This document shows, piece after piece, positions 12,187 to 30,554 of a stretch of 53,348 nt of DNA; positions within the stretch are counted from its first letter, which is position 1; each line of letters opens with the position of its first letter. The translations under genes were made by a program, and so were the position numbers. Under the pieces are notes generated by a model. The model was not told the origin of the DNA. It saw nothing but the letters and a program-made list of their open reading frames with translations, and did no database searches. The stretch is from Acidobacteriaceae bacterium (lineage in GTDB: Bacteria > Acidobacteriota > Terriglobia > Bryobacterales > Bryobacteraceae). Location of the stretch: NCBI GenBank assembly GCA_019244055.1, contig JAFATG010000345.1:1-53348 (forward strand), given 5' to 3'.

Positions 12187-12331
12187 GAGGAGATTTCCTT
12201 TCACACACAACACGTGGAATCAATAACGACTTTATCGGCGATTCCGTGCCTGCCAGAGTGCTACATTGCAAACGGAATGTCAACTAGATTGCGGTTTGAT
12301 TTGGACTAGACCATCAGAGGGGCGCTGGGGA

Positions 12332-12859
12332 CTACTTTGGCAGTGTAGGCGGGATAGCGGGAGCCGGTTTATCGGGCGTTTGAGTGGGAGGCGGTGGAGC
12401 TGCAGGCATAGAGCTGGCGGGTGTGGACGGCGCAGTCTGAGCGACAGGGCCAGCATCGTGATTCGGCCCCAGGCCTAAGCCGATCAAAGAAAGAGAATTG
12501 ATTTTCCCGTCGTTCGGGATCCGTTGATCGGTCTGGAAGCGTTGCAGCGCGTCCACGGAATCGGGCCCCCATTGCCCGTTGACCTCACCCTTGAAATAAC
12601 CACGATCGGCCAGAGCCTTTTGGACTTCCTGATACCGTTCGGGGGTGGGTTGCGTTTGATAGGAGGGACCTGCAGCGCGATGCGCCTTCGAATGACGGCT
12701 GCGAGAATGCGAGGAGGCGGCGAGAGGCTTTGCCTTGGAAGTCGAGATGCCGGCGCCCTTCGATGCTGCAGCCGACTGTGCTGATTTCGACTGAACGGTC
12801 GCAGCAAATATTGGAACAACCAACGCTGTAGCCGAGAGCACAGCCATCACAAACTTCAT
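12332..12859 (-). CDS. Exported peptidoglycan-binding-domain (PG_binding_1) protein
   Basis: The start at 12859 gives MKFVMAVLSATALVVPIFAA, a clean signal peptide; the longer in-frame start adds an unlikely tail. A basic Ser/Ala-rich linker follows, then one PG_binding_1 unit at about 75-135 (YQEVQKALADRGYF, NGQWGPDSVDALQRFQ). A proline-rich tail ends the 175-residue protein. Such domains bind cell-wall peptidoglycan. There is no catalytic domain. The first 100 bases of this gene plus its upstream region occur again, degraded, about 3 kb away. Confidence 0.82.
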   Translation of the reverse strand: MKFVMAVLSATALVVPIFAATVQSKSAQSAAASKGAGISTSKAKPLAASSHSRSRHSKAHRAAGPSYQTQPTPERYQEVQKALADRGYFKGEVNGQWGPDSVDALQRFQTDQRIPNDGKINSLSLIGLGLGPNHDAGPVAQTAPSTPASSMPAAPPPPTQTPDKPAPAIPPTLPK

Positions 12860-12905
12860 GCCGAAACCAGATGTTAGCACTGAATCGGGGTTTGCATACC
12901 GGGTA
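12791..12905. repeat. Direct repeat copy 1: start and upstream region of the peptidoglycan-binding gene
   Basis: This stretch aligns base by base with 15795-15908 in the same orientation and with a constant offset of 3004 over the central part. The shared blocks include the first ten codons (MKF..AVLSA) and about 45 bases upstream of the ATG. Read on the reverse strand in another frame both copies give the same peptide, IWFRHEVCD, which shows how close they are. Identity is roughly 75-80 percent by eye. Confidence 0.7.
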
Positions 12906-12949
12906 AACACTTATATCGGGTCGCGCTCTGTATTGGATTCGTTGAGCCA

Positions 12950-13476
12950 TTGAGCACAATCCTGCTTGCTTTCGCTCTCTATGTGACCCTTAGGCCGGTC
13001 GATAGCCTGCTGGCCCAATTCGCAATGTACTGGAGGCTCGGAGAAGGATTCTCGGAGGCGTGGGTACCATTTTCGGTTTTCTCACGCTACGCCTTTATAG
13101 CCGCCCACAGCCGATGCGGGCATTGGGAGACGACCAGTTACAGGTTTCGCTCGACCTAACGAACTATGCCGGCTCTATCTTAACCAACATCAGCGCCACT
13201 TTCTTCAGTATCGGCTCAATCCTTTTCTTTTACCTCTTTTTGAAATCGAGATATATCCCCAGACTTCTGTCAGGACTTGGACTGTTTGCTTCGATCATTG
13301 TGATGATTATGTTGTTTGGGAATCTGATCTTTCCCGAACACGCAGCAACGCTCCAATACGGGTGGGCACCGATGGCCATCGCCGAAGTGACTACCGGCTT
13401 CTGGCTTATGTTTGCGGTAAAAATCCCAGCCCAGGGTGATGAGCTATCCGGTGAACGAGCCCCTATTCCCGGTTAG
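12950..13476 (+). pseudogene. Broken DUF4386 membrane protein gene
   Basis: Two overlapping frames carry successive parts of a DUF4386 protein. The first (from 12950) encodes a helix followed by a VDSLLAQFAMYWRLGE-type segment. The second (to 13476) encodes the downstream helices, with TNISATFFSIGSILFFYLFLKS and IPRLLSGLGLFASI, and a terminal helix with FWLMFAVK. The break lies near 13045-13060 and needs a single-base shift. The N-terminal helix or helices and any start codon are missing. The family is a four- to six-helix integral membrane protein of unknown function. Confidence 0.68.
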
Positions 13477-13781
13477 CGGTGCTTTCGCCACCCACGGTCG
13501 AGTGATCGCACTGGGGGGAAGTAATCGGCAGGTTGCGCGGTCAAGTACCGCTATCTTCCACTGCCAATCAAAATCGGCTCGAAGCGACGCCGAGGCTTCA
13601 CTCGGCGATATCGCGGTTTCCGTTTAATTTAAGTGAAATCTCGCAAGCAGGGTTTCGCCGGCTATCGTTGATCTACATATAAGGATGTGGCCGGAGCGAA
13701 GCCGTGGCACACACCTCGCCTAGGCCCGAGATTGCCGGCGGCAGCCAATTCAGCGTTCGGAACAAGTACCTTCGTCAATCC
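13477..13781. other. Gene-free stretch of about 300 bases within the graveyard
   Basis: I see no credible coding frame, RNA gene or promoter here. It separates the broken DUF4386 gene from the TIGR03118 remnant and is probably decayed sequence. Confidence 0.5.
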
Positions 13782-14114
13782 CTATTCTTGGTCTTGCTGA
13801 TCCCTGTCAGCCGAGACGATCTTCCCGAATAAGCCATCAGCGTAATTGTTTGGGCCAGCCGCAAAGAAGAGCTTGTTGCGTTCGCCTTCGTCTCCCCCGC
13901 GATTAAAAACCAGCCCCCACAATTCATCGATGATGATCACATTCCCGTTCCTGTCCGTGAGCTGGCCAAGAAACTGATGTGTCCGCGGATCAAAAGCACT
14001 GATGTGGCCGTCGTCAACGTTTCCAATCAGAATTGCGCCACTGAACGGTCCGAAATCGTCAGGAGCGAGCGCGACACCCCAGGGTGCCTCGAGCGGACCC
14101 CCTGAAGAGTTCAT
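13782..14114 (-). pseudogene. C-terminal remnant of a TIGR03118-family protein
   Basis: The 110 residues read APWGVALAPDDFGPFSGAIL, FDPRTHQFLGQL, VIIIDELWGLVFN and NKLFFAAGPNNYADGLFG. These are the last propeller blades of the TIGR03118 family, whose full-length members are about 350-400 residues with a signal peptide. The N-terminal two thirds are missing: the sequence runs at 14114 straight into a different gene remnant of opposite orientation. It is therefore a truncated, non-functional copy. Confidence 0.72.
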
Positions 14115-14117
14115 CGC

Positions 14118-15691
14118 GAAATGTCAGCCCCAGGTCACCGAGTTGCCGGGCACGGAGGATGCATCCGCGCCATTCTTTTCGCCGGACGGGCAATGGTGGG
14201 ATTCGCCGCTAACAACAAGCTGAAGAAGATCTCGGTGAAGGGCGGCGAGGTGGTCCCACTGACGAGCGTTGCCTACTTCGCCAGCGGTAGTTGGGGTGAG
14301 GACGGCGACATTGTTGTGGGGCGGCCCCTGAAGGAAGGAATGGCGCGGATGCCTTCGAGGGGGGGCGCCCGCCACTCTGACGGAATTGGCGGGCAGTGAG
14401 GTCTTCCACCGGAGCCCGCAAATTCTGCCCGGAGGCAAAGCGGTGTTGTTTGTGGCCGGCATCTTGGACAACCCCGACAAAAACAGCATCGACGTGGTCT
14501 CCTTGGTGGATCATCGCAGGAAGACGTTGGTGCGGGGAGGCCAATGCCCCCGGTACACGCCGAGCGGCCACCTAGTCTATGTCAATAGGGGAACCTTGTT
14601 CGCGATCCCATTCGACGTGGCTCGATTGGAGACGCACGGGAGTGCCGTTCCTGTTCTAGACCAGGTCGCATACAACGCGCTGGGTGACGCCGCTCAGTTT
14701 GACTTGTCTCGCACGGGCATATTGGTGTACCGAAGGGCTGGCGGCGGATTTCGAACGACTACCGTTCAATGGCTCGACGGCACGGGCAAGAAGGAGCCGC
14801 TGCTGACCAAGCCCGGCATCTATAAATACCCGCGGCTCTCGCCGGATGGCAAGCGGCTGGCCCTAGTTCTTATCGCGGGAGGGCGCCGGGATGTCTGGGT
14901 TTACGAATGGCAGCGTGACACGATGACGCGGGTGACGTTCGACGGGGGACCCTTACGGTGATCCAACTTGGAGTTCGGATGGTCGGTACCTCGTCTTCGA
15001 TTCTTACAACAGAGGCGGTATGTTCTGGACCCGTGCGGACGGAGCAGGCCAGCCTAAGCAGTTAACGCAAAGCAAGGGTTTCCAAATACCAGCGTCCTTC
15101 TCGCCCGATGGCAAGCGCCTAGCGTATCACGATTTCACCAGCTCCAACGGGCAGATCTGGACTGTGCCAGTCGATGATAACGGGCGACAGTTGCGGGCCG
15201 GAAAGCCGGAGCAGTTCCTCAAAAGCCAGTTCGAGGACAGCTTTGCGGCGTTCTCACCCGACGGCAGATGGCTGGCGTATGCATCGAACGAGTCGGGGAG
15301 GGACGAGGTGTACGTGCGGGCTTTTCCGGTGCCGGCGGCCGGGCAGGGCGGCAAAACCCAGATATCGAATAGCGGGGGCATCGCCCCGGTCTGGTCGCGG
15401 AATGGGAGCGAGTTACTTTACTATGCCGGCGATCAAATCATGACCGTGAGCTATTCCGTAAGAGGCGACACGTTCTTGGCAGATAAACCCCGGGCGTGGG
15501 CGGAGAACGCAACGGTAAGGCAAGCCAGGGAAGCTGTGGATTGCGATAACTGCTTCGACCTGTCGCCGGATGGCAAGCGCGTGGCTGTGCTTACACCGGT
15601 AGAGCAGGAACCACCGACGGAGGAGCACGAAGTGGTTTTCCTGTTCAACTTCTTCGACGAACTGCAGCGGCGCGTGCCGGCGGAAAAATGA
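14118..15691 (+). pseudogene. Broken PD40/TolB-like propeller, tail of an acidobacterial protein-kinase-type gene
   Basis: Joined across frames, the region reads as a PD40 beta-propeller: TEDASAPFFSPDGQW, KLKKISVKGGEVVPL, SGSWGEDGDIV, ILPGGKAVLFVAG, SGHLVYVNRGTLFAIPFD, SPDGKRLALVL, WSSDGRYLVFDS, FSPDGRWLAYASNE and FDLSPDGKRVAVL. At least three single-base indels break it: near 14192 (a G appears missing), in a run of seven Gs at 14359-14365 (one extra), and near 14957 (an extra T before GATCCA). This propeller normally follows a PknB-type Ser/Thr kinase domain or a transcriptional-regulator domain. Neither is present, and the gene starts abruptly at the junction with the TIGR03118 remnant. 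The end at 15691 is a natural stop. Confidence 0.75.
14359..14365 (+). other. Seven-G run carrying one of the frameshifts of the PD40 pseudogene
   Basis: Upstream of the run the frame gives GMARMPSRGG. Removing one G restores APATLTELAGSEVFHRSPQ and the following propeller blades. Homopolymer slippage or a base-calling error would both produce this. Confidence 0.6.
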
Positions 15692-15794
15692 TCGTCCAAC
15701 AGTTTCACTAACGTAAATGATCGATTCTGCCTGATTCGCCGAACTTCTCCTTGAGGCGTTCTGTGACCCTCCCTGGGCGATACACCGTGACAGC
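15692..15794. other. Short unassigned stretch after the PD40 pseudogene
   Basis: About 100 bases between the natural stop of the PD40 remnant and the second copy of the repeat hold no recognisable gene. Confidence 0.4.
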
Positions 15795-15908
15795 TCTGAC
15801 CCTCCGAAGCAGATATTGGAAAGGGCGCCGTTATGCCGAGAGCACAGCGATCGCAAACTTCATGCCGGAACCAGATGTCAGCACTGAATCGCGGGGTGCA
15901 TCTTGGGT
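15795..15908 (-). pseudogene. Direct repeat copy 2: degraded start of a peptidoglycan-binding gene paralog
   Basis: The reverse strand reads ATG then KFAIAVLSA and a TAA stop after ten codons, matching the signal peptide start of the gene at 12859. Homology continues past the stop for about 50 more bases and covers about 45 bases of upstream sequence. No peptidoglycan-binding domain follows. It is a relic of a second copy, and with copy 1 it brackets most of the decayed region. Confidence 0.65.
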
Positions 15909-16066
15909 GGTGTCCTAAATCTCCGTTGCAGAGTTGAATCGGCAATGGTTGGGCGGTGCGCTAACGCGAAATGAAAACGCCGAGGTGATAGCGAAATTTC
16001 GGATAACGCTGTTTACCGTTCATACCACGGGAAGAATCGTAAGCCGCAACTGTTACGCTAACCGGG
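15909..16066. other. Gap upstream of the small membrane protein
   Basis: About 160 bases hold no open gene. The small membrane-protein gene starts at its end. I see no convincing promoter pair. Confidence 0.4.
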
Positions 16067-16333
16067 ATGCCCCAGTTTCTGAAACTACCTAGCGGCGTGG
16101 TGATCAATGTAGCACTGATTCGCAGAATCGCTCCGAACGAGAACGGTGGGGCTTCCGTTTATTTCGGTAGCGACGATACGATCACGATTGATTCCCAGGA
16201 TGCCGATTTTCTGTCGAAGAGGCTTGGACCAAATACATCGTTGTCGTCGACGATCAAAGTCGCTGTTTTCTGGATCGTGGTAGCTGCCGCTCTTACTCTG
16301 GTCTACCTCGCAACACGCACCACGCATCTCTAG
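16067..16333 (+). CDS. Small membrane-anchored protein of unknown function
   Basis: The 88-residue product has a soluble N-terminal part (about 1-60) with short strands such as FLKLPSGVVINVALIRRI and ASVYFGSDDTITIDSQDADF. One C-terminal membrane helix (about 63-82, VAVFWIVVAAALTLVYLA) follows. The N-terminal pattern resembles small beta-barrel or PH-like modules in which a line of conserved residues carries position and substitution information, but I cannot name the family. About 160 bases of unassigned sequence lie on each side. Confidence 0.6.
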   Translation: MPQFLKLPSGVVINVALIRRIAPNENGGASVYFGSDDTITIDSQDADFLSKRLGPNTSLSSTIKVAVFWIVVAAALTLVYLATRTTHL

Positions 16334-16492
16334 GACCCACTCTTTGCGACTCGTTAACGGATAAACTCGCCTCCCGCCCCCAATGGTTGGTCACACAGAA
16401 GGAATTCAGCCGCTCGCGCACGTTGTGAGTGGCCTTAGAAGAGATACCTCCCGAGAGGCACGGATCCCTTGAAGTAGAGCTCTTTCGCTGTA

Positions 16493-17531
16493 TCAAGCTT
16501 TGGATGCGGGCATGCCGAGGCGACTCTGCGCCTTTCGGCCTATCCAAAGAAGCAGATCCGCGACGATGAACAATATGAGTCCGACGTAAGCAGGTAGGAG
16601 GTGCAGAAAGTCCAGGTAGCCGACTGCAAAGTGTACGCCGATCGCACATCCGAATCCCGCAGCTCCCATAAGGGCGACAATCTGTATCAAGCTCTTGCTG
16701 AGTTTGGCGTGCCGTGCCACCAGCAGGAGGAAGCCGCCGATTGAGCAGGGCCAACTCCGAAGCCGGCGCGGTCATGCGAAATCACAGGAATCAACATGGG
16801 AGAAATTCTCTTTAAGACCGAAACATCCAAACCGATGAACCTAAGGTCTGAGGGGACGAAGACTGTTGTCATTCCGAACACCGCGATGGTTATACCTGCG
16901 ACCATAAGCCCTATCGCCGTGACCGCGAGTAGAAGTCGGCCTGACGTCGCAGCGTAGTTTTCATGGGGACGGCCAGTCCGCCAGACGGAGCTGAGTCTCA
17001 GCGCTTCTGGGCGTAGACGCCACACGCCACCAGCGAAGATCGGGAGGAGAAAAAGTGTCGCGACCGCGTGCCATGAGTCGAGATATCCCTGCCCAAGATA
17101 GGTCAGGAACCCAATGAAGCCAATTGCACCCGATAGCATTAGTGCCCACCACGCCCAGATTTCCCGACGCGCCAGGGGAAAGCCGCGAGCCACATGTATC
17201 CGAAGCCAATGGATAAAAGCGAGCCTCCGCAGGCCACGCGGTCGTGAAACATAAATCCCAGAAGACGCGGATTCCCAGCACGCATCAGGGCAACTGCATC
17301 CATGCCCATTGCCTGACTGTCATGTGGAAGCAAATGGCCGGACGCAGACTGCAGTAGAGCGAAGCCGCCGGTTAAGGCGAGGCAAAACCCGGTGAGCGCG
17401 ACGGGAAATCTGCCGTCTCCAATTCCTGCTTCGAACAGGCCACAGCCGTCGGCGATGGCGGCAGTAGCAAAGCCCGGCGTTGAGTCGATGCTTCCCGCAC
17501 CCAACTTTAGCCGATCGAAGAGACGCGACAT
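16493..17531 (-). pseudogene. Multi-pass membrane protein gene broken by two frameshifts
   Basis: Three reverse-strand frames give consecutive parts of one protein of about 345 residues. The first runs from MSRLFDRLKLGAG to GFGYMWLAAFP. The second runs from LARREIWAWWALM to HDRAGFG, including FVPSDLRFIGLDV. The third runs CSIGGFLLLVARHAK to the stop. Breaks lie near 17170 (in a C run) and near 16745. About eight to ten hydrophobic helices are predicted. The two halves share an internal repeat: GQGYLDSWHAVATLF in one and AVGYLDFLHLLPAYV in the other. I cannot assign a function with confidence. True decay and sequencing errors at short homopolymers are both possible. Confidence 0.68.
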
Positions 17532-17599
17532 TCTTAGAATTTACGACCGTACAGAGTCAGGCGGCTTGTTCGTCCGTCTTCTTCTGAATGAATCAATAG

Positions 17600-17627
17600 C
17601 CCATCCTTCACACCTGCGAAGGATGGG
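17600..17627 (-). terminator. Perfect 10-bp hairpin, probable terminator
   Basis: CCCATCCTTC and GAAGGATGGG form a perfect stem with an eight-base loop. It lies 27 bases after the stop of the minus-strand gene at 17654. On that strand the hairpin is followed by only a weak T-rich stretch, so termination efficiency is uncertain. Confidence 0.55.
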
Positions 17628-17653
17628 TCTGATGATCGGCGTAAACCTAACAG

Positions 17654-18121
17654 CTACGCAGCGGTGTGTTTGCTTCGCTGCTTGCTCATCTGGCTCATGA
17701 ACTCGCGCATGGTGGCGATCTGGCCCGGCGAGCGTTTCTCCGACCACGCCTCGAAGCGCTTGGCGGCGTTTTCCATGTGGACTAGAAAAAATTGGTTTTT
17801 CCACATCTCGCGGCCCTGCTGCAGTCCGGGCCGGATGCGCTCGAACACACCGAAGAACTCGCCACTGGTTTCGAAGAAGAGGTCCTCGTGCAGCAGCCCA
17901 TAATCGAGCAGGGCACACGCCTGCTCCCAGTAACTGACTACCATCATGAAATTGGTGCCGCCTTCGGTGCCGGGGGCCGCTATCTTCATCCCGTCTTCAA
18001 AGGTCTCGGGCCAGTAGTTCTGGAAGAACCAGTCGCGCGCTTTACGCAGACGCTCTTCCCGGCGCTCTTCGTAAACCCGAAGGTGCAGCTGGGCTTGTTC
18101 GAACGTTGGCTTCGTTTCCAT
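17654..18121 (-). CDS. Cytoplasmic protein of unknown function, possibly DUF4760-like
   Basis: The ATG at 18121 has AAGGAGA eight bases upstream, a strong start. The 155-residue protein is helical, rich in Glu, Arg, Phe and Trp, without a signal peptide or membrane helix. Blocks include RKARDWFFQNYWPETFEDG, SYWEQACALLDYGLLHEDLFFE and a RFEAWSEKRSPGQIATMREFM tail. The YWEQ-LL-GL-EDLF pattern resembles DUF4760-type proteins, but the match is tentative. Confidence 0.7.
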   Translation of the reverse strand: METKPTFEQAQLHLRVYEERREERLRKARDWFFQNYWPETFEDGMKIAAPGTEGGTNFMMVVSYWEQACALLDYGLLHEDLFFETSGEFFGVFERIRPGLQQGREMWKNQFFLVHMENAAKRFEAWSEKRSPGQIATMREFMSQMSKQRSKHTAA

Positions 18122-18283
18122 TTTTCAGTCTCCTTTTCTCTCTGTTGCGTAAATCAAAATGTATACCACCGTAAGCTAATCGAGCGGAGGCGGTCGAAAT
18201 CGACAGCGCGCGACGTGATTTTTTGCCCGGCTGCCTAGTCGCCCAACTCTGATGTTTTTTTTGGCGGTCAGCGTGAAATCTTT
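18122..18283. other. Intergenic region upstream of the unknown gene at 18121
   Basis: About 160 bases hold the ribosome binding site of the 18121 gene and presumably its promoter, but no convincing -35/-10 pair is visible. Confidence 0.4.
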
Positions 18284-18493
18284 CTAAATCCATGCTTCTG
18301 GCCCACGCAAGCGGGCGCTGCTGGCATCGAATCCAGATGCCATCTTCACACCCAATTCCTTCGCTAGCTGAATCTCCTGTTGAATTCCAAGCAGGAATTC
18401 GCCAATCCGACGACGCTGCTCAGGAGACAATTGGGTCGTTTTTGCGTTGTTCAATTGTCCTAGGACCAAAGTGTCACCCTTTTCCCGGGCCAT
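18284..18493 (-). CDS. Small hypothetical protein
   Basis: The 69-residue product (MAREKGDTLVLGQLNNAK, SPEQRRRIGEFLLGIQQEI) would form a helix around residues 22-50. No Shine-Dalgarno sequence is visible and I recognise no family. It may be real because its composition is protein-like and it fits the gap between two genes, but it could be chance. Confidence 0.4.
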   Translation of the reverse strand: MAREKGDTLVLGQLNNAKTTQLSPEQRRRIGEFLLGIQQEIQLAKELGVKMASGFDASSARLRGPEAWI

Positions 18494-18595
18494 ACAATTC
18501 GATTCCGTTCCGCTACAGTGAGAACGTCCCTGTTCTTCGTGTCATCTCACGCGTTAGATCCTAGATCTCCTTTAGCCGAATCGCCTGGCACCGCC

Positions 18596-20092
18596 ATGGG
18601 TGTGCTTCATAGGCGCCTGTCGTTGGCGATCTTCATCGCGGTCCTTGCGCTCATCTCGGCCGGCGTGCTCGTTTACTCGGAAACCGTTTCGTTCGTTTGG
18701 GACGAGGGATTCCACCTTGTAGCGGCACAGTTGATCGACGCCGGCAAGACTCCCTATATTGATTTCTGCTTTCCGCAACCTCCCCTGAACGCCTACCTGA
18801 ATGCCGGCTTAATGCGCTTATTTAGCCAAAACTGGCATGTGACTCATGCCGCAGCAGGTTTGTTTGTGGTTGGCGCGATGATCCTCATGGCCGATTTCGT
18901 TCGCCGCCGCTTTCCGATTCGGGAGTGGCGGATGGCCGCCGCGCTCGTAGTTGCAACGGTCGTGGGACTGGATGTAGTCGTCGTCCAGTTCGGCACATCG
19001 GCGCAGGCATACGGGATAGGTATGTTTTTGGCGGTCGCGGCTTTTCGCTGCATGGTGGCCGGCGCTGAGCGTCCGCGCGCCTGGTTCTCATTAGCGGCGG
19101 GCCTCCTGGCCGGCTCTGCCGGGGCTTCGACTCTTTTGACAGCCCCAATCATTCCCATCCTGCTGGTTTGGCTGTGGATCTACAACCGCGATGGCGACCG
19201 GCGGATCAAAGCGATCGTATTCATTGCCGGCGTGGTGATTCCGTTTGCCCCGGTTTTTTGGCTTCTAGTAAAAGCGCGCCGGCAGACATTCTTCAACGTG
19301 GTCGAATACCAAGCCTTGTTCCGGCGCGTGAATTGGGGCGATGTGGGCGCACACGACGTCGATGTTCTCAGTGACTGGTTAGCGTCGACGCAGGCGCTCG
19401 TCATGGGACTGCTGGCCATTGCCGGGCTTCTGTATCTATGGAAGAACAGGCACTGCGAGGAGACCCGGCGCAGTGAAATCTATTTGGCCGCGTGGCTCGC
19501 GATTGGCTTGGGCGTATATATTGCGACGGCGCATCCGACCTTCGGACGGTACTTCGTGTTCATGATCCCGTTTACCGCTGTGTTGGCGGTTATCGGTTTG
19601 TACTCGGTGGGCTCGCGGCTCACGGCGAATGGCCGCCCGTTCTGGCCCGCCGCGGTGGTGATTGCGTTAACTGCGCTGTCATTCGGAAAAGCTCTGTTTG
19701 ACGACCGCAACTCGACCACATGGAAGGATTACCAGCAGATTGCGGACCAGGTGAAGAAAGTCACTCCGCCACACAAGTTGTATTACGCCGATGAGCTGGT
19801 TTATTTTCTGCTACGCCAGGCACCCCCTTCCGGAATGGAGTTTTCCTATTCGCACAAGCTGCAATTGCCGGCTCAGCAGGAGCGCCTCTACCACATCGTC
19901 TCGCTCGATGAACTGAAGAAACAGGTGGCTGCCGGCAGATTCTATACCGTGCAAACCTGTAAGGACGAATTCATCGACGATTTTAGACTGGATGATTTGT
20001 TTCCTAACGAGAAGGACGTTGCGGACTGTTGGGTGTATTGGGGCGAGGTGAAAGGCGGGTCCGGGAGCTCCGGACCCGCCGTTGCGAAGTAA
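18596..20092 (+). CDS. Multi-pass membrane glycosyltransferase of the GT39/ArnT-like type
   Basis: From ATG at 18596 the protein is about 498 residues. The first helix is followed by a loop with VWDEGFHLVAAQLIDAGKTPYIDF and QPPLNAYLNA. This corresponds to the D/E-containing first periplasmic loop of lipid-linked-sugar transferases (PMT/ArnT/GT39). About ten more helices follow, with a TFGRYFVFMIPF segment near 320, and a soluble C-terminal part of about 130 residues. Such enzymes move sugars from polyprenyl-phosphate carriers to lipids or proteins outside the membrane. An upstream in-frame GTG at 18518 is possible. The last codons lie in a perfect 11-bp palindrome. Confidence 0.78.
   Translation: MGVLHRRLSLAIFIAVLALISAGVLVYSETVSFVWDEGFHLVAAQLIDAGKTPYIDFCFPQPPLNAYLNAGLMRLFSQNWHVTHAAAGLFVVGAMILMADFVRRRFPIREWRMAAALVVATVVGLDVVVVQFGTSAQAYGIGMFLAVAAFRCMVAGAERPRAWFSLAAGLLAGSAGASTLLTAPIIPILLVWLWIYNRDGDRRIKAIVFIAGVVIPFAPVFWLLVKARRQTFFNVVEYQALFRRVNWGDVGAHDVDVLSDWLASTQALVMGLLAIAGLLYLWKNRHCEETRRSEIYLAAWLAIGLGVYIATAHPTFGRYFVFMIPFTAVLAVIGLYSVGSRLTANGRPFWPAAVVIALTALSFGKALFDDRNSTTWKDYQQIADQVKKVTPPHKLYYADELVYFLLRQAPPSGMEFSYSHKLQLPAQQERLYHIVSLDELKKQVAAGRFYTVQTCKDEFIDDFRLDDLFPNEKDVADCWVYWGEVKGGSGSSGPAVAK
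20054..20080. repeat. Perfect 11-bp inverted repeat inside the 3' end of the glycosyltransferase gene
   Basis: GGCGGGTCCGG and CCGGACCCGCC form a perfect stem with a five-base loop, GAGCT. It is translated as GGSGSSGPA, ten bases before the stop codon. No T run follows, so it is not a classical terminator; it could be a palindromic extragenic element that has extended the coding end, or a transcript-stabilising hairpin. Confidence 0.7.
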
Positions 20093-23895: not shown

Positions 23896-24525
23896 ATGGC
23901 ATTTTTTCGGTCGTACGCAATTGGCGCTCTCATCGCCTCCGCAGCATTTCTCTTCGCATATCAGCACGGCGGACAGCCCGGGGTCTTCGATCATTACCTG
24001 CTGACTCTTTCGTGGTCCCCGGAATTCTGCTACAGCAATCCACAAAAAGCGGAGTGCGCCGCAGGACAGCGCCGGGCCTTCATTGTTCACGGACTTTGGC
24101 CGGAGTTCCGCGGCGGCGGAGGACCCGAGTATTGTTCGCCAGCTCCCGGGCCGGCGCAACCGGCGGGAATGCTCGACATGATGCCGGACCTGCACTTGAT
24201 AGAACATGAATGGCTGGCGCACGGCACGTGCAGCGGGCTCAGCGCGGATAATTACTTCGGCCAGATCCGGAAGGCTTTCGAGTCGGTCCGGATTCCGAGG
24301 CAGTTCGCCGCTCCACGAGCCCAGTTCGCGATTTCGCCAGTCGATTTGAAGAAAGCCTTCGAGGGGGCGAATCCCAGCTTGAACGACTCCGGGATCATGA
24401 TCCAGTGCCGAGGCCCATACCTCAGCGCGGTCGAGATCTGCTTATCGAAAGATCTGCGGCCAATTCCCTGCCCCGCAGTCCACGAGTGCCGGGCGCGGAT
24501 GGTCCGCGTCGCGCCCGTGAGGTGA
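23896..24525 (+). CDS. Ribonuclease T2 family, exported
   Basis: The 209-residue protein begins with a hydrophobic segment (about 6-24). It has both T2 active-site boxes: FIVHGLWPEF near 62-71 (first catalytic His) and EHEWLAHGTC near 103-112 (catalytic Glu/His). Cysteines suit disulfides. T2 enzymes cleave single-stranded RNA through 2',3'-cyclic phosphates and act outside the cytoplasm. A GAGGCAGGA site lies six bases upstream of ATG. It converges on the tricorn gene and is divergent from DUF4159. Confidence 0.93.
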   Translation: MAFFRSYAIGALIASAAFLFAYQHGGQPGVFDHYLLTLSWSPEFCYSNPQKAECAAGQRRAFIVHGLWPEFRGGGGPEYCSPAPGPAQPAGMLDMMPDLHLIEHEWLAHGTCSGLSADNYFGQIRKAFESVRIPRQFAAPRAQFAISPVDLKKAFEGANPSLNDSGIMIQCRGPYLSAVEICLSKDLRPIPCPAVHECRARMVRVAPVR

Positions 24526-24531
24526 TCGCGT

Positions 24532-27500
24532 TCATTGCTGCGCTGTTTCGTGCACCGTTCCGAAGCGCTGATGGTAATTCGGGTACGCCGGTTTTTCGAA
24601 TTTCTCGGGCGGATTTTTCTTCATCAGCTCTAACGCTACTGAAACGGCGCGCTCGAGTTGCGGGTCATGCCCTTCGCGCACCAGCTTGGGATCGAGATCC
24701 ACTTCGATATCGGGCGCGATACCGTGGTTTTCCACTTCCCACTGTCCTTTGAGACCGTAAAAGGCCCAGCGCGGAGCGGTAACCCGTCCTCCATCGATCA
24801 ACTCCGGATACCCGCCGATGCCAACTAACCCACCCCATGTTTTCATTCCAACCAGCGGTCCAATACCAGTCTTTCGGAAATACCAAGGCATAGCATCGCC
24901 GCCCGAACCCGCAAATTGATTGATGATCATCACTTTGGGGCCGTAGATCGCTTGGGTCGGATCAGTGACGTCCTCGCCTTCCCGGCTGGTTATGCGGCCC
25001 ATGGGACGGCGGTTTAGGTAATCGATGATGTAATCTGCGACATCGCCGCCGTGATTGAAGCGTTCGTCGAGCACGGCTGCCTGACGGCCGACTTGCGCGA
25101 AGAAGTAGCGGTTGAAATTCGTGAAGCCTCCTTCGGCGGTATCGGGAAGGTGAACGTATGCGACAGCTCCATGAGTCAGTTGATCGACTGTGTTACGGTT
25201 GTGCTCGATCCAGTCTCGATAGCGTAGGTTGTGTTCGCTATCGACGGGAACCACGGTCACCTCGCGAGAGCCGCTGCCATCGGGATTCGGCCCAACTCTA
25301 AGGACGACCTCATTGCCCGCGGTTTCCTGAAAGAAGCTGTAGATGTTGTCAGTAGATCCGAGATCGCGCCCATTCACGGCGAGCAGGTAATCGCCCGCCG
25401 TTACGTTCACGCCCGGTTGCGTGAGGGGCGCCTGCAGCTTGGGATTCCAATTCTCGCCTTGTAGCACTCTCGCGAACCGGTAGCGGCCATTTTCAATTTT
25501 GTAATCGGCGCCTAGCAATCCAACTTTCACGTGCGGAACCTCAGGCATTGTGCCGCCACGAACAAACATGTGGCCGACTGTGATATTGCCGAGCATCTCC
25601 TCAAACAGGTAATTCAGGTCGTCGCGGCTGCGGACGCGAGCGAGATAAGGCGCGTAGTAGGTTTCGGCGGCGCGTAGATCGAGGCCGTGAAAGTGCGGGT
25701 CGTAGAAGAAATCCCGCTCAATGCGCCAGACTTCGTGATACATCTGCTTCCACTCGGCCTGAGGCTCGACATAAACCTCCATTTGCGCCAATTTAAGTAC
25801 GCCCTCGCCCGCTTTCGGCGTCTGACCGGATGCTGCTATGGTCCAATCCTCGCCTTTGCGGAAGAGCATTTTTTCGCCGTTTTCCGAGAGCTGGAACACT
25901 GTGACGCCTTCCAGTACGGTTTCATCCTTGCGGCTCTTGAAATCGAATTTGTGGACGATTAGCGCGGGCGGGCCGGGATTCAATTCGACGATGGGAGCTT
26001 CAACGAGATATACGATTCCTTCTTTGCCGGTTGCAAGCTGCGAATAATTCTTCTCCGGGACCGGGAGCGCGAGAATGCGCTGGCTGATGTTCTCAACATC
26101 GATTCGGACTTCGGGCGGAGCAGCGGGTTTCTTGTCTTTCTCTGCGTCCTTGCCCTTGTCTTTATCGGCCTTGTCCTTGTCCCTCTTGTCTTTGTCTTCG
26201 GCCTTTTGATCCCCGGGCTTCTCTTCATCGCTCTCGGGCGCCAACGGCGACGGCAGATCTTTGCGGAGCACCATCACGTAAGGAGCGCTGGTCACGGGAT
26301 GACCGATGCTGGTCATATCGATCCAGCCCGCTCCTAAAGCGAGGTTCGTGCTTGCAGTGAAGTAAAGATATTTGCCGCTCTTATCAAAGGTAGGAAATAG
26401 AGCGTCACTCATGCCGTCGGTCAGTTGCGTCGATTTCGCATCGCCCAGCGAGTACACAAACACGGCATGCAGATAGTTCGGCAGTTGCTTGGTATAGCCA
26501 ATCCAGCGGCTATCAGGCGACCAGTTGGGGTCCATACGATGAGCCGGGCTATCGAACAGATCGGTATCCACACGAACAGGGGTCTTCTTGTCGAGATCCA
26601 CGTACCAAAGATTCAGACGTTTATCGGTATAGGCGATCTTCTTGCTGTCGGGCGACCAGATGGGCGAATAGAAGAACGAGGGCGGGTCGCCGAGATTAAT
26701 CTTCTTAACCTCTCCGAGGCCGCTTTGATCACGAATGTGGAGCGCATATTCGCCGGATTCGTCAGAGAAGTAAGCGACCCATTTGCCATCGGGCGACCAG
26801 GAGGGATCACGGTCGGCAATGGCCGGAGTGCAGGTAAGGTTGCGGATGTTGCCCTTTTCAGCGGGGACGGTGAGGATCTCGCCGTGTGCTTCGAAGACGG
26901 CGCGCTGACCCGTAGGCGAAATGCCGGAATTGATAATTTTGGTGTTGTTCATCTTCTCCCAGCGCGGACGAACCTCGGCTAGATCGGCGGCTATGCGGAC
27001 TTCTACGGGATGCCATTTTCCGGATTTCAGATCGAAAAATATAGAGCGAGCCGAACTGTTCGTACACGATGGCGCCCCTACCGGATGAAGCTGACTTGAA
27101 ATCCAGGCCCTCGTTCTTCACGATTTCGGTCACCTTGCGGGAAGAGATGTCATAGGCCCAGAGACTGACCGGTCCGTTGCGATCGGACAAGAAATAGACT
27201 TTGTTGCCGACCCACATGGGATTGAAGTCGTTTGAGTTCTCACGCGGAACCGGCACTACGCTTGAATCAGACAAATCCGCGAGCCAGATCTTCATGGTCT
27301 GGCCGTCGCGATAGCGCTTCCAGGACGCTTGCCACTGGAATCCGGGTGCATACGCGATATGGGAAGCGTCGGGCGAGTAAGAGCCGTCTTCGGCAATCGG
27401 AAGCGGCAGCACTTCGGGGAAAACGCCGTTTAGCGCGATGGTGTAGAGCTGGCCTCCGTCGGCGTAGCTGTCGCGGTGAGAGTTGAAGAGGACGCGCTTT

Positions 27501-27853
27501 CCATCCGGTGTCCAGCCAACTGCAACGTCCGGACCCGGATGATAGGTGAGCCGGCGTGGCTCACCGCCCGCGGCGGGGACGACGTAGACATCAATGTTGC
27601 CGTCGTATTCCCCGGTGAACGCGACCAGCGAGCCGTCCGGGGAGAAATGCGGCCCCGTTTCGTGCCCGACACCGTTGGTTAGCCGCTGAGCGTCACCGCC
27701 ATCCCGGCTGACAATCCAAATGTCTCCTGCGTATTCGAAGGCAATTTGCGTCTGACTCACTGTGGGATTCCGGACGAGGGGAGGCGGATCGTTTTGGGCC
27801 TGAATGGGAAGGGCGGTAGCGACCGCAAAAAGCACTGAAAGGAACTTGTGCAT
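24532..27853 (-). pseudogene. Tricorn-type protease gene split by one extra base (frameshift near 27035)
   Basis: The start at 27853 gives a signal peptide (MHKFLSVLFAVATALPIQA) and a first propeller with PHFSPDGSLVAFTG and VGWTPDGKRVLF. This frame runs to about 27030, then fails. In the next frame the protein continues as DLKSGKWHPVEVRIAADLAEVRPRW (overlapping in phase) into MNNTKI at 26952 and the rest. That part holds a second propeller, a Lys/Asp-rich linker, a tricorn C1-like region with VWRIERDFFYDPHFHG, a PDZ domain near GVNVTAGDYLLAVNG, and an S41-type protease domain with QFAGSGGDAMPWYF (nucleophile Ser) and LGNITVGH. The total of about 1106 residues equals a normal tricorn homolog. 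The domain content is intact; only one base disrupts it. It may be a recent mutation, a sequencing error or a +1 frameshift site. Confidence 0.8.
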
Positions 27854-27893
27854 ATAGATGAAGTGGGTTTCGGCCATTATAGGTGACAAGGGT

Positions 27894-28880
27894 ATGCGAC
27901 TTATTGTTAGGGTGCTGGGCGTGGTATTTGTCCTTGCTCTCGGGGGAGAAGGACGATCGCCAGAGCCTTTGAGAAGCATTGGACTGGTGCTATTGCCTCA
28001 TGTCGAGGGGCGGTTGGATCGTATGGCGGCGGACGTCGACGGAAGACGAGTTTTTCTGTCTGCGCTGACCAACAATACCGTTCAAGTAATCGATGCGAAG
28101 CGAAAAACCCTGCTGCATGCGATCTCCGGGCTGGCGCAGCCCAAAGGAATCGGTTATCTAGCAGGGTTCGATCGCATTTATGTTGCGAATGGCGGCGACG
28201 GCACTCTTCGCAAGTACGATGGCGGCACGTATTTGCCATTGCAGAACAAGCGAATCGGTGACAATATCGAAAACTTGCACCCGGGCATAACGGACAGCCG
28301 CGTGTTTGTCGGTTACGGAAGAGGAACGCTGGTTGGACTCGACAACATTGAGAAAAAGCTGTTCGAAGTGACGCTCGACGGCCACCCCGAAGGATTCCGA
28401 TTAGAGGCATTCGGACCAAGGATCTTCATCAACATTCCTGATAGGCGCGAGGTGGAAGTCGTGGATCGCGACACGCATACCGTGGTAGCGAAATGGCATC
28501 TTCAGAGAGAGCGGCGCAACTACGCGATGGCGCTGGATGAAGCAAATCACCGGCTGTTTGTCGCTTGCCGCCAGCCATCCACACTGCTCGTAATGGACGC
28601 GTCAAATGGCGCGGTGATCCAGAGGCTACCTACGATTGGAGACTCGGATGACGTGCATTACGACGGGACGCGAAAACGCATCTACGTGACGGGCGGAGAG
28701 GGCGCGATTTCCATTTACGAGCAGACCGACCCTGATCATTACCGGCAGATCGCCACGGTGCCGACCGCATCCGGAGCGCGAACCAGTCTCTTCGTGGCGA
28801 ATTGGAACCAACTTTTTGTAGCCGTACCTGCGCGTGGAAACCGGAGAGCAGAACTGCGAATTTACCGGGCGCAACCTTAA
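27894..28880 (+). CDS. Exported YncE-like beta-propeller protein
   Basis: From ATG at 27894 (AGGTG about eight bases upstream) the product is 328 residues with a signal peptide. Blades of a YVTN/YncE-type propeller follow: GRLDRMAADVDGRRVFLSALTNNTVQVIDA, GFDRIYVANGGDGTLRKYD, RIFINIPDRREVEVVDR, HRLFVACRQPSTLLVMDAS and KRIYVTGGEGAISIYE. No catalytic domain is attached. Such proteins are usually periplasmic binding or scaffold proteins. It is divergent from the tricorn gene with about 40 bases between starts. Confidence 0.85.
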   Translation: MRLIVRVLGVVFVLALGGEGRSPEPLRSIGLVLLPHVEGRLDRMAADVDGRRVFLSALTNNTVQVIDAKRKTLLHAISGLAQPKGIGYLAGFDRIYVANGGDGTLRKYDGGTYLPLQNKRIGDNIENLHPGITDSRVFVGYGRGTLVGLDNIEKKLFEVTLDGHPEGFRLEAFGPRIFINIPDRREVEVVDRDTHTVVAKWHLQRERRNYAMALDEANHRLFVACRQPSTLLVMDASNGAVIQRLPTIGDSDDVHYDGTRKRIYVTGGEGAISIYEQTDPDHYRQIATVPTASGARTSLFVANWNQLFVAVPARGNRRAELRIYRAQP

Positions 28881-28893
28881 TGCAATTTGAACC

Positions 28894-29862
28894 CTAGCTG
28901 GAGGCAGGAGCGATGGCCTGGACATGCGGGTTCACGCCACCAAGCCACTTGAGATTTTTGGCCGTACTGTCGAAGACATCGCTGGTTTTGAACAGCTCCC
29001 AGCGGCCGTCCTTTGCCGGTTCAGCGGTCTTCGCCAGGATCGCGCCGATCTGTTCGTCTGTCACTTGATGCTGAGTCTGCGCGGCGGCCATGGCCTGGTC
29101 GAGGATCTCCGGTTTATCGATTCCGGTAATCACGACGCTTGCCGGCGTGTGCAGGGCGAAGTGCAGGCATTCCACCGGAGTTACGATGTTGCTTTTCAGA
29201 ATTACGCCATCCCCCATGCTCTTCATTGCGAGGACGCCGATATCGCGTTTGATCAGTTCGGGAACGACGAGACGCGTGAAGCTCCGGAAGTGCGCGTCCA
29301 GAACGTTGATCGGCATCTGCGCGGCATCAAACAGGAAGCCATGTCTCTCCGCCACTTCTAGCATGTAGAGGTGAATTTGCGGATCTTTATGGCCCGTAAA
29401 ACCGATATACCGGATCTTGCCCGCCTTCTTCGCTTCCAGAACTGCTTCGATAGCGCCATCTTGGGCGAAGATACGGTCGGGATCGTCGAAGCGAATAATC
29501 TCGTGAAACTGCAGGAGATCGATACGGTCAGTGCGCAGGCGACGGAGTGATTCGTCGATCTGCTGCGCGGCCGAGTCTTTGGTACGGCCGTCGATCTTGG
29601 TCATGAGAAAGACACGATTCCGGTAACCGTCCTGTTTGAGCGCTCTGCCCATGCGGCGTTCGCTCTCGCCTTTGTTGTAATCCCAGGAGTTATCGAGGAA
29701 GTTGATACCGCGATCAACGGCCGCATGAATCAGGTTGATAGCGTCGGACGACGTGAGCGATTTGAAGCCGAGATGAAACCCGCCCATTCCGATGCAAGAG
29801 ACTTTCTCGCCGGTATGGCCGAGAGTGCGGTAAGGAATTTCACTGCCGTTTGTCACGGCCAT
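28894..29862 (-). CDS. Aldo/keto reductase
   Basis: The start at 29862 gives IPYRTLGHTGEKVSCIGMGGFH, a typical AKR N-terminus. Then come NFLDNSWDYNKGESERRMGRAL (catalytic Asp and Tyr), FLMTKIDGRTK (Lys), DRIDLLQFHEI (His), IRYIGFTGHKD and VLAMKSMGDG. The 322-residue length fits. It lies 26 bases downstream of a secreted-protein gene on the same strand and is likely co-transcribed. The substrate is unknown. An in-frame upstream extension through 30024 lies antisense-like within the neighbour and is not a real start. Confidence 0.92.
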   Translation of the reverse strand: MAVTNGSEIPYRTLGHTGEKVSCIGMGGFHLGFKSLTSSDAINLIHAAVDRGINFLDNSWDYNKGESERRMGRALKQDGYRNRVFLMTKIDGRTKDSAAQQIDESLRRLRTDRIDLLQFHEIIRFDDPDRIFAQDGAIEAVLEAKKAGKIRYIGFTGHKDPQIHLYMLEVAERHGFLFDAAQMPINVLDAHFRSFTRLVVPELIKRDIGVLAMKSMGDGVILKSNIVTPVECLHFALHTPASVVITGIDKPEILDQAMAAAQTQHQVTDEQIGAILAKTAEPAKDGRWELFKTSDVFDSTAKNLKWLGGVNPHVQAIAPASS

Positions 29863-29888
29863 TAGACGCGTCGAGGGCGAATCTTGGA

Positions 29889-30554
29889 TCAGCGATCGTT
29901 CGAGTTGTCCGGTGGGATGTCTTTTAGCCGGACGCCGGCCGGCTTGGCGAACAGCTTGGGGTCGAAGGGGAGTTCCTGGTAGATGATGTACTCGTACTTG
30001 TAAGTACCGTCTTTGGCATGCCAAGTCAAAAAAACGGGTGCTTGAGATTGGGATCGGACGACCAGAGTTGCCGGACCATTGGCGGTATCGAGGACATACT
30101 CATCGGTCGGTTTGCCGTTAATAATCGGGCCGGCGCGGCGACTGGCGCCAGCCTGTTTGAAAAAATGCAGCTCATCGCCGAATTCGAGATCGTCCAGCTC
30201 CGGAAGCTCATGGTTGGGATCGAAAGGCAGAACTATAGGGAGGTGCAAGTCATTCGGACCCCCTTGATCGATCGCGTGAGTACCTTCGCGATCGATGAGG
30301 TTCAAGCTGTAAGCGTCTGGTTCGGCAATGATCGTCAGCTTGTGTACGTGCTGTTTGGCATCGGGCGGATCTTCTACGCGAGCGTAGTGCGGAGCGCTGG
30401 AATAGATTGTCCGAGGAAGAGCGGCGAAGGACCCTGGTTTGATCCCTGGGCCGATCAAGCGCACGACGATCTTCGTCATTGTCTTCGGATAAGCTTGCGG
30501 CTCTTGCGCGGCGGGCGACAGGAGCGTGAGTAGGCCGCCAATCAGTAGCAACAT
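29889..30554 (-). CDS. Exported protein of unknown function
   Basis: The 221-residue product starts with a hydrophobic signal (MLLLIGGLLTLLSPAAQEPQA), then a beta-rich domain: IVVRLIGPGIKPGSFAALPRTIY, HKLTIIAEPDAYSLNLIDREG, DEYVLDTANGPATLVVRS and YKYEYIIYQELPFDPKLFAKP. I do not recognise the family. It precedes the aldo/keto reductase and is divergent from the ABC transporter operon. Confidence 0.78.
   Translation of the reverse strand: MLLLIGGLLTLLSPAAQEPQAYPKTMTKIVVRLIGPGIKPGSFAALPRTIYSSAPHYARVEDPPDAKQHVHKLTIIAEPDAYSLNLIDREGTHAIDQGGPNDLHLPIVLPFDPNHELPELDDLEFGDELHFFKQAGASRRAGPIINGKPTDEYVLDTANGPATLVVRSQSQAPVFLTWHAKDGTYKYEYIIYQELPFDPKLFAKPAGVRLKDIPPDNSNDR

Follow-up and report, generated by a model that had tools for sequence, protein, structure and literature searches.

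In the available text of Antonov et al. 2013 (PMC3711429), unclustered frame transitions are put down to one of four causes, namely sequencing error, recent indel, adjacent genes and orphan recoding. For singletons validated by homology (BLASTp), sequencing error is expected there in preference to a genuine indel, and recoding is called where both position and motif are conserved. As excerpted, a second source (PMC12421855) describes prfB as carrying an in-frame stop and as frameshifted in many bacteria. The locus considered here is a tricorn-type protease gene on the minus strand, split by a frame change, within a stretch of 53,348 nucleotides (the window) from the draft genome of a Bryobacterales-like acidobacterium, assembled into 372 contigs of up to 130 kb. 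The break falls in a UUU-C context, which may be prone to +1 slippage, and +1 is the direction of programmed shifts of the prfB type. Comparison with relatives identifies the site as a singleton indel of the ordinary kind, either a real recent mutation or a consensus error.

Domain content and PDB sequence matches identify the product as a tricorn-type (S41-family) protease with putative peptidase activity. Pfam places PD40 repeats in both the upstream and the downstream piece of the gene and, in the downstream piece, Tricorn_C1, PDZ_Tricorn and Peptidase_S41, all above cut-offs. Tricorn protease (1k32) was the top match for both pieces in a PDB sequence search, at E 4.7e-18 for the upstream piece (query 66–322) and E 2.5e-70 for the downstream piece (best stretch 358–809). 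These three domains and the N-terminal propellers of tricorn-type proteases are thus present, and the single continuous frame is interrupted at 27039–27034. The nearest named relatives are Acidobacteriota MAGs, several of them labelled Bryobacterales or Bryobacteraceae. The N-terminus resembles a signal peptide (MHKFLSVLFAVATALPIQA), which makes the Met at 27853 the likely true start and suggests that the protein is probably secreted. The neighbouring gene (23896–24525) lies on the other strand and encodes a ribonuclease T2 family protein.

The upstream open frame (26858–27979, minus strand, 373 aa) encodes the N-terminal part of the protein, with its PD40 and 1k32 matches. It stays in phase to Phe315 (codon 27037–27035) before 58 out-of-frame residues lead to a stop codon whose last base is 26858. 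The downstream open frame (24532–27042, minus strand, open from at least 27042 and 836 aa counted from there) holds a PD40 repeat together with Tricorn_C1, PDZ_Tricorn and Peptidase_S41, and its first listed start codon is ATG 26952 (26952–24532, 806 aa). At the break, TAT ATT TTT C GAT (27031–27043, minus strand), there is one nucleotide more than in the homologs read there, with T5 at 27039–27035 followed by C at 27034. The upstream frame reads TAT ATT TTT CGA TCT (...GSLYIF|RSE) and the downstream frame ATA TTT TTC GAT CTG (IFFDLKSGKW). The initial annotation had reported this reverse-strand break, and direct reading and the open reading frames confirm it. Its length of about 1106 residues for the joined product is reproduced from Met 27853 (residue 43 of the upstream ORF) onward, where the two parts sum to 1106, and its statement that the gene has no further break holds, both pieces being otherwise free of stops. 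Skipping the C, as was proposed, restores the expected sequence, but the C is not uniquely the extra base; within TTTTTC the additional nucleotide has no unique position, the C and one alternative lead to identical residues, and homologs with Phe before Asp use both TTC and TTT.

In a search of the genus, all 17 genomes, the window's own included, matched the upstream piece, although not all of these matches are orthologs. A survey of reading frames covered 121 loci, with several contigs present more than once. The two matches were in frame, with no stop between their outer ends, at 97 loci, including one (L029) that spans only 191 residues, may miss the site and is absent from the site comparison. 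Seven further loci were in frame with one stop (L005, L044 and L034, which are one gene, and L063, L089, L111 and L016), none of these stops falling within the 16 codons shown around the site. Five loci were out of frame (L014, L046, L039, L041 and L057), seven matched one side only, two were the window itself and three gave no match.

None of the out-of-frame loci reproduces the break. L014, L046 and L039 are one gene of genome G003, out of frame through an NN gap; this gene was rejected as a sharer of the break, since it lacks the additional base and its frame changes after the gap, 64 bases downstream of the site. The frame change in the G002 paralog (L041/L021) is at another point, about 340 residues after the downstream piece begins. 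The two best pieces of L057 lie 3 kb apart and were taken as different copies, and the site itself is in frame.

Read codon by codon, the site yielded 92 distinct sequences, the window's own and 91 others. Ninety of the others pass through the site in a single frame, their 16 codons free of stops; among them are L002, a paralog from the window's own genome, and several paralogs of greater distance. In most of the ninety the downstream frame reads back into an EQFG-like stretch. The remaining sequence (L046, at the same place as L014) was misregistered in the table, and its direct alignment has no extra base. Of the 91 distinct sequences other than the window's own, not one therefore carries the shift (90 from the table, one by direct alignment). 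A DNA search of 200 genomes of the family returned no closer relative sharing the break, the best identity being 77%, so that no conspecific comparison is possible; the two non-genus loci from this search inspected at the site (L152 and L153) continue in one frame across it. The exact flank of the site had no match in viral contigs. As far as sequences could be read at this position, the break is thus private to one assembly.

This distribution bears directly on programmed frameshifting, in which tRNA-Phe would slip from UUU to UUC before CGA and so yield the full protease. Slippage at this site is conceivable, and omitting one base restores conserved sequence. Against such a mechanism, none of the 91 other site sequences is shifted and no motif is conserved at the site: the codon pair ahead of Asp differs from homolog to homolog (CTG CTC, TTA TTC, CTC TAT, ATC TAC, CTG GTG), and the TTT-C context is not kept. 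The RNA fold of 26940–27080 is also weaker than that of shuffled sequences (z = +1.57), with 192 of 200 shuffles folding at least as well as this one 141-base stretch when pseudoknots are left aside. A scan of the window found neither a tRNA nor an Rfam family that reached its gathering score. On the in-frame homologs, the varying site codons and the unremarkable RNA fold we reject a programmed shift, which we regard as very improbable. Of the three readings offered by the initial annotation, recent mutation and assembly error survive, and the programmed shift is not supported; the homologs read at the site have simple in-frame sequence, the very observation that the annotation itself had set against it. 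A newly arisen, species-specific +1 shift at UUU-C that would keep a broken secreted protease partly productive appears equally far-fetched; if true, it would mean that the broken gene is tolerated without decay.

Gene fission would give the break another meaning, with one polypeptide for the first propeller and a separate, translationally coupled polypeptide, begun at ATG 26952, for the second propeller plus protease. On 1k32 the break falls at about chain position 270, close to where the first aligned stretch ends, and from the known structure we take this stretch to be the first propeller. ATG 26952 is moreover preceded by GGGAGAAG, with a GGGAG stretch. However, Met 26952 is found in only some homologs, which makes an evolved restart there unlikely; the downstream piece would presumably be made without a signal peptide, and a split at the site occurs in none of the homologs read there. 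We consider fission highly doubtful.

Our preferred reading is that the gene of a probably secreted tricorn-type (S41-family) protease is disrupted by a private insertion of one nucleotide into a short run of Ts. The insertion would be a genuine, very recent slippage mutation carried by at least part of the sampled population, and translation of the broken gene would give a first propeller that is truncated and lacks the protease domains. We judge this the most likely explanation, with about an even chance of being correct, and infer the presence of the mutation in living cells. Nearly as likely, at somewhat under an even chance, is a consensus or assembly error, in which the cells keep an intact gene and the extra base exists in the assembly only. 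The gene, about 3.4 kb long and under normal constraint, has this one isolated break, as an error would also produce, and the break falls in a 5-base homopolymer, in a window where only 1.1% of bases lie in runs of at least five. Error is also the explanation favoured for BLASTp-validated singletons in the available text of Antonov et al. 2013 (PMC3711429). Against it stands the character of the assembly, which at 372 contigs of up to 130 kb looks like a short-read product. Homopolymer indels are rare in short-read consensus sequence.

Gene condition fits both readings alike. At the individual codon positions, divergence from close homologs is much the same on the two sides of the break, and in most comparisons the C-terminal protease part is somewhat better conserved. 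Relative to L043, for example, identity is 79% before the break and 74% and 79% after it, with third positions at 0.525–0.536. The two sides are thus similarly constrained, and the gene shows no decay. Such an absence of decay is consistent with a very recent mutation and with a consensus error.

Homopolymers in the rest of the window also bear on the error reading. Its gene set (44,028 bases) contains 85 runs of at least five and nine of at least six, and it speaks against a systematic homopolymer error that the one clear break detected is at a run of five and none is at the nine longer runs. The longer runs in other window genes show no visible break, and the codon-usage frame map of the window, which is no homology test for most genes, has no other switch resembling a break in a well-supported gene. 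Within the window, beyond the protease, homology checks covered a doubtful pair of ORFs and a single further ORF. The pair (29889–30554 and 28894–30024, overlapping on one strand in different frames near an A7 run) was rejected as a second break, relatives having separate genes of similar length. The further ORF, a gene with a T6 run (18518–20092), has counterparts of comparable open length in relatives, with two exceptions: in G001 the match is split into two pieces, and in G011 it spans part of the query.

Coding signal in the frame map is patchy over about 6 kb of the window (12300–18500). PD40 matches occur there in two plus-strand ORFs in different frames (14386–14961 and 15020–15691), along with a partial DUF4386 at 13060–13476 (profile positions 102–208 of 210) and a 74-base direct repeat at 12831 and 15835 (86%). 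The stretch from 12.3 to 18.5 kb may hold decayed genes.

Frame breaks are not unique to the protease gene in this genome. The MacB_PCD family is very large here, with at least 150 matches (150 of 247 first-look candidates were scored), and we examined 18 of its permease stretches. Homologous parts lie in different frames in seven of them (C245, C290, C67, C333, C365, C369 and C364; loci L124, L125, L130, L132, L133, L134 and L138), and one has an in-frame stop (C1). Eight reach or approach contig ends (C168, C101, C90, C337, C85, C325, C84 and C23), one looks like two separate genes (C27) and one had no match (C278). As these stretches were picked mainly for short frames, the counts give no genome-wide rate of breaks. 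Two RND stretches were also inspected: C46 (L122), an RND-type transporter, is in three-frame pieces with a large part missing, and C182 is open. Four of the six inspected break regions (of the seven permease breaks), whose positions are known only to within tens of bases, have no run of at least four, which also counts against a systematic homopolymer error. Some of these other broken genes may be true pseudogenes or assembly faults.

The break matters little beyond annotation, where gene-calling software would probably list a pair of truncated proteins. The site may also be mistaken for recoding, and the relatives show an isolated indel of the usual kind. With the programmed +1 frameshift of the prfB type it shares the direction of the shift; it differs in having no in-frame stop at the shift and in not being shared by relatives. 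It is closer to the singletons in the excerpted text of Antonov et al. 2013 (PMC3711429), as a homology-validated, unclustered frame transition that is not common to relatives, although complete genomes were used there and the present source is a draft of 372 contigs. Compared with tricorn protease itself (PDB 1k32 / 1n6d), the gene in the window is split by one extra base and its product is probably secreted, and the two have in common the propeller repeats, the C1 and PDZ domains and an S41-type C-terminal domain.
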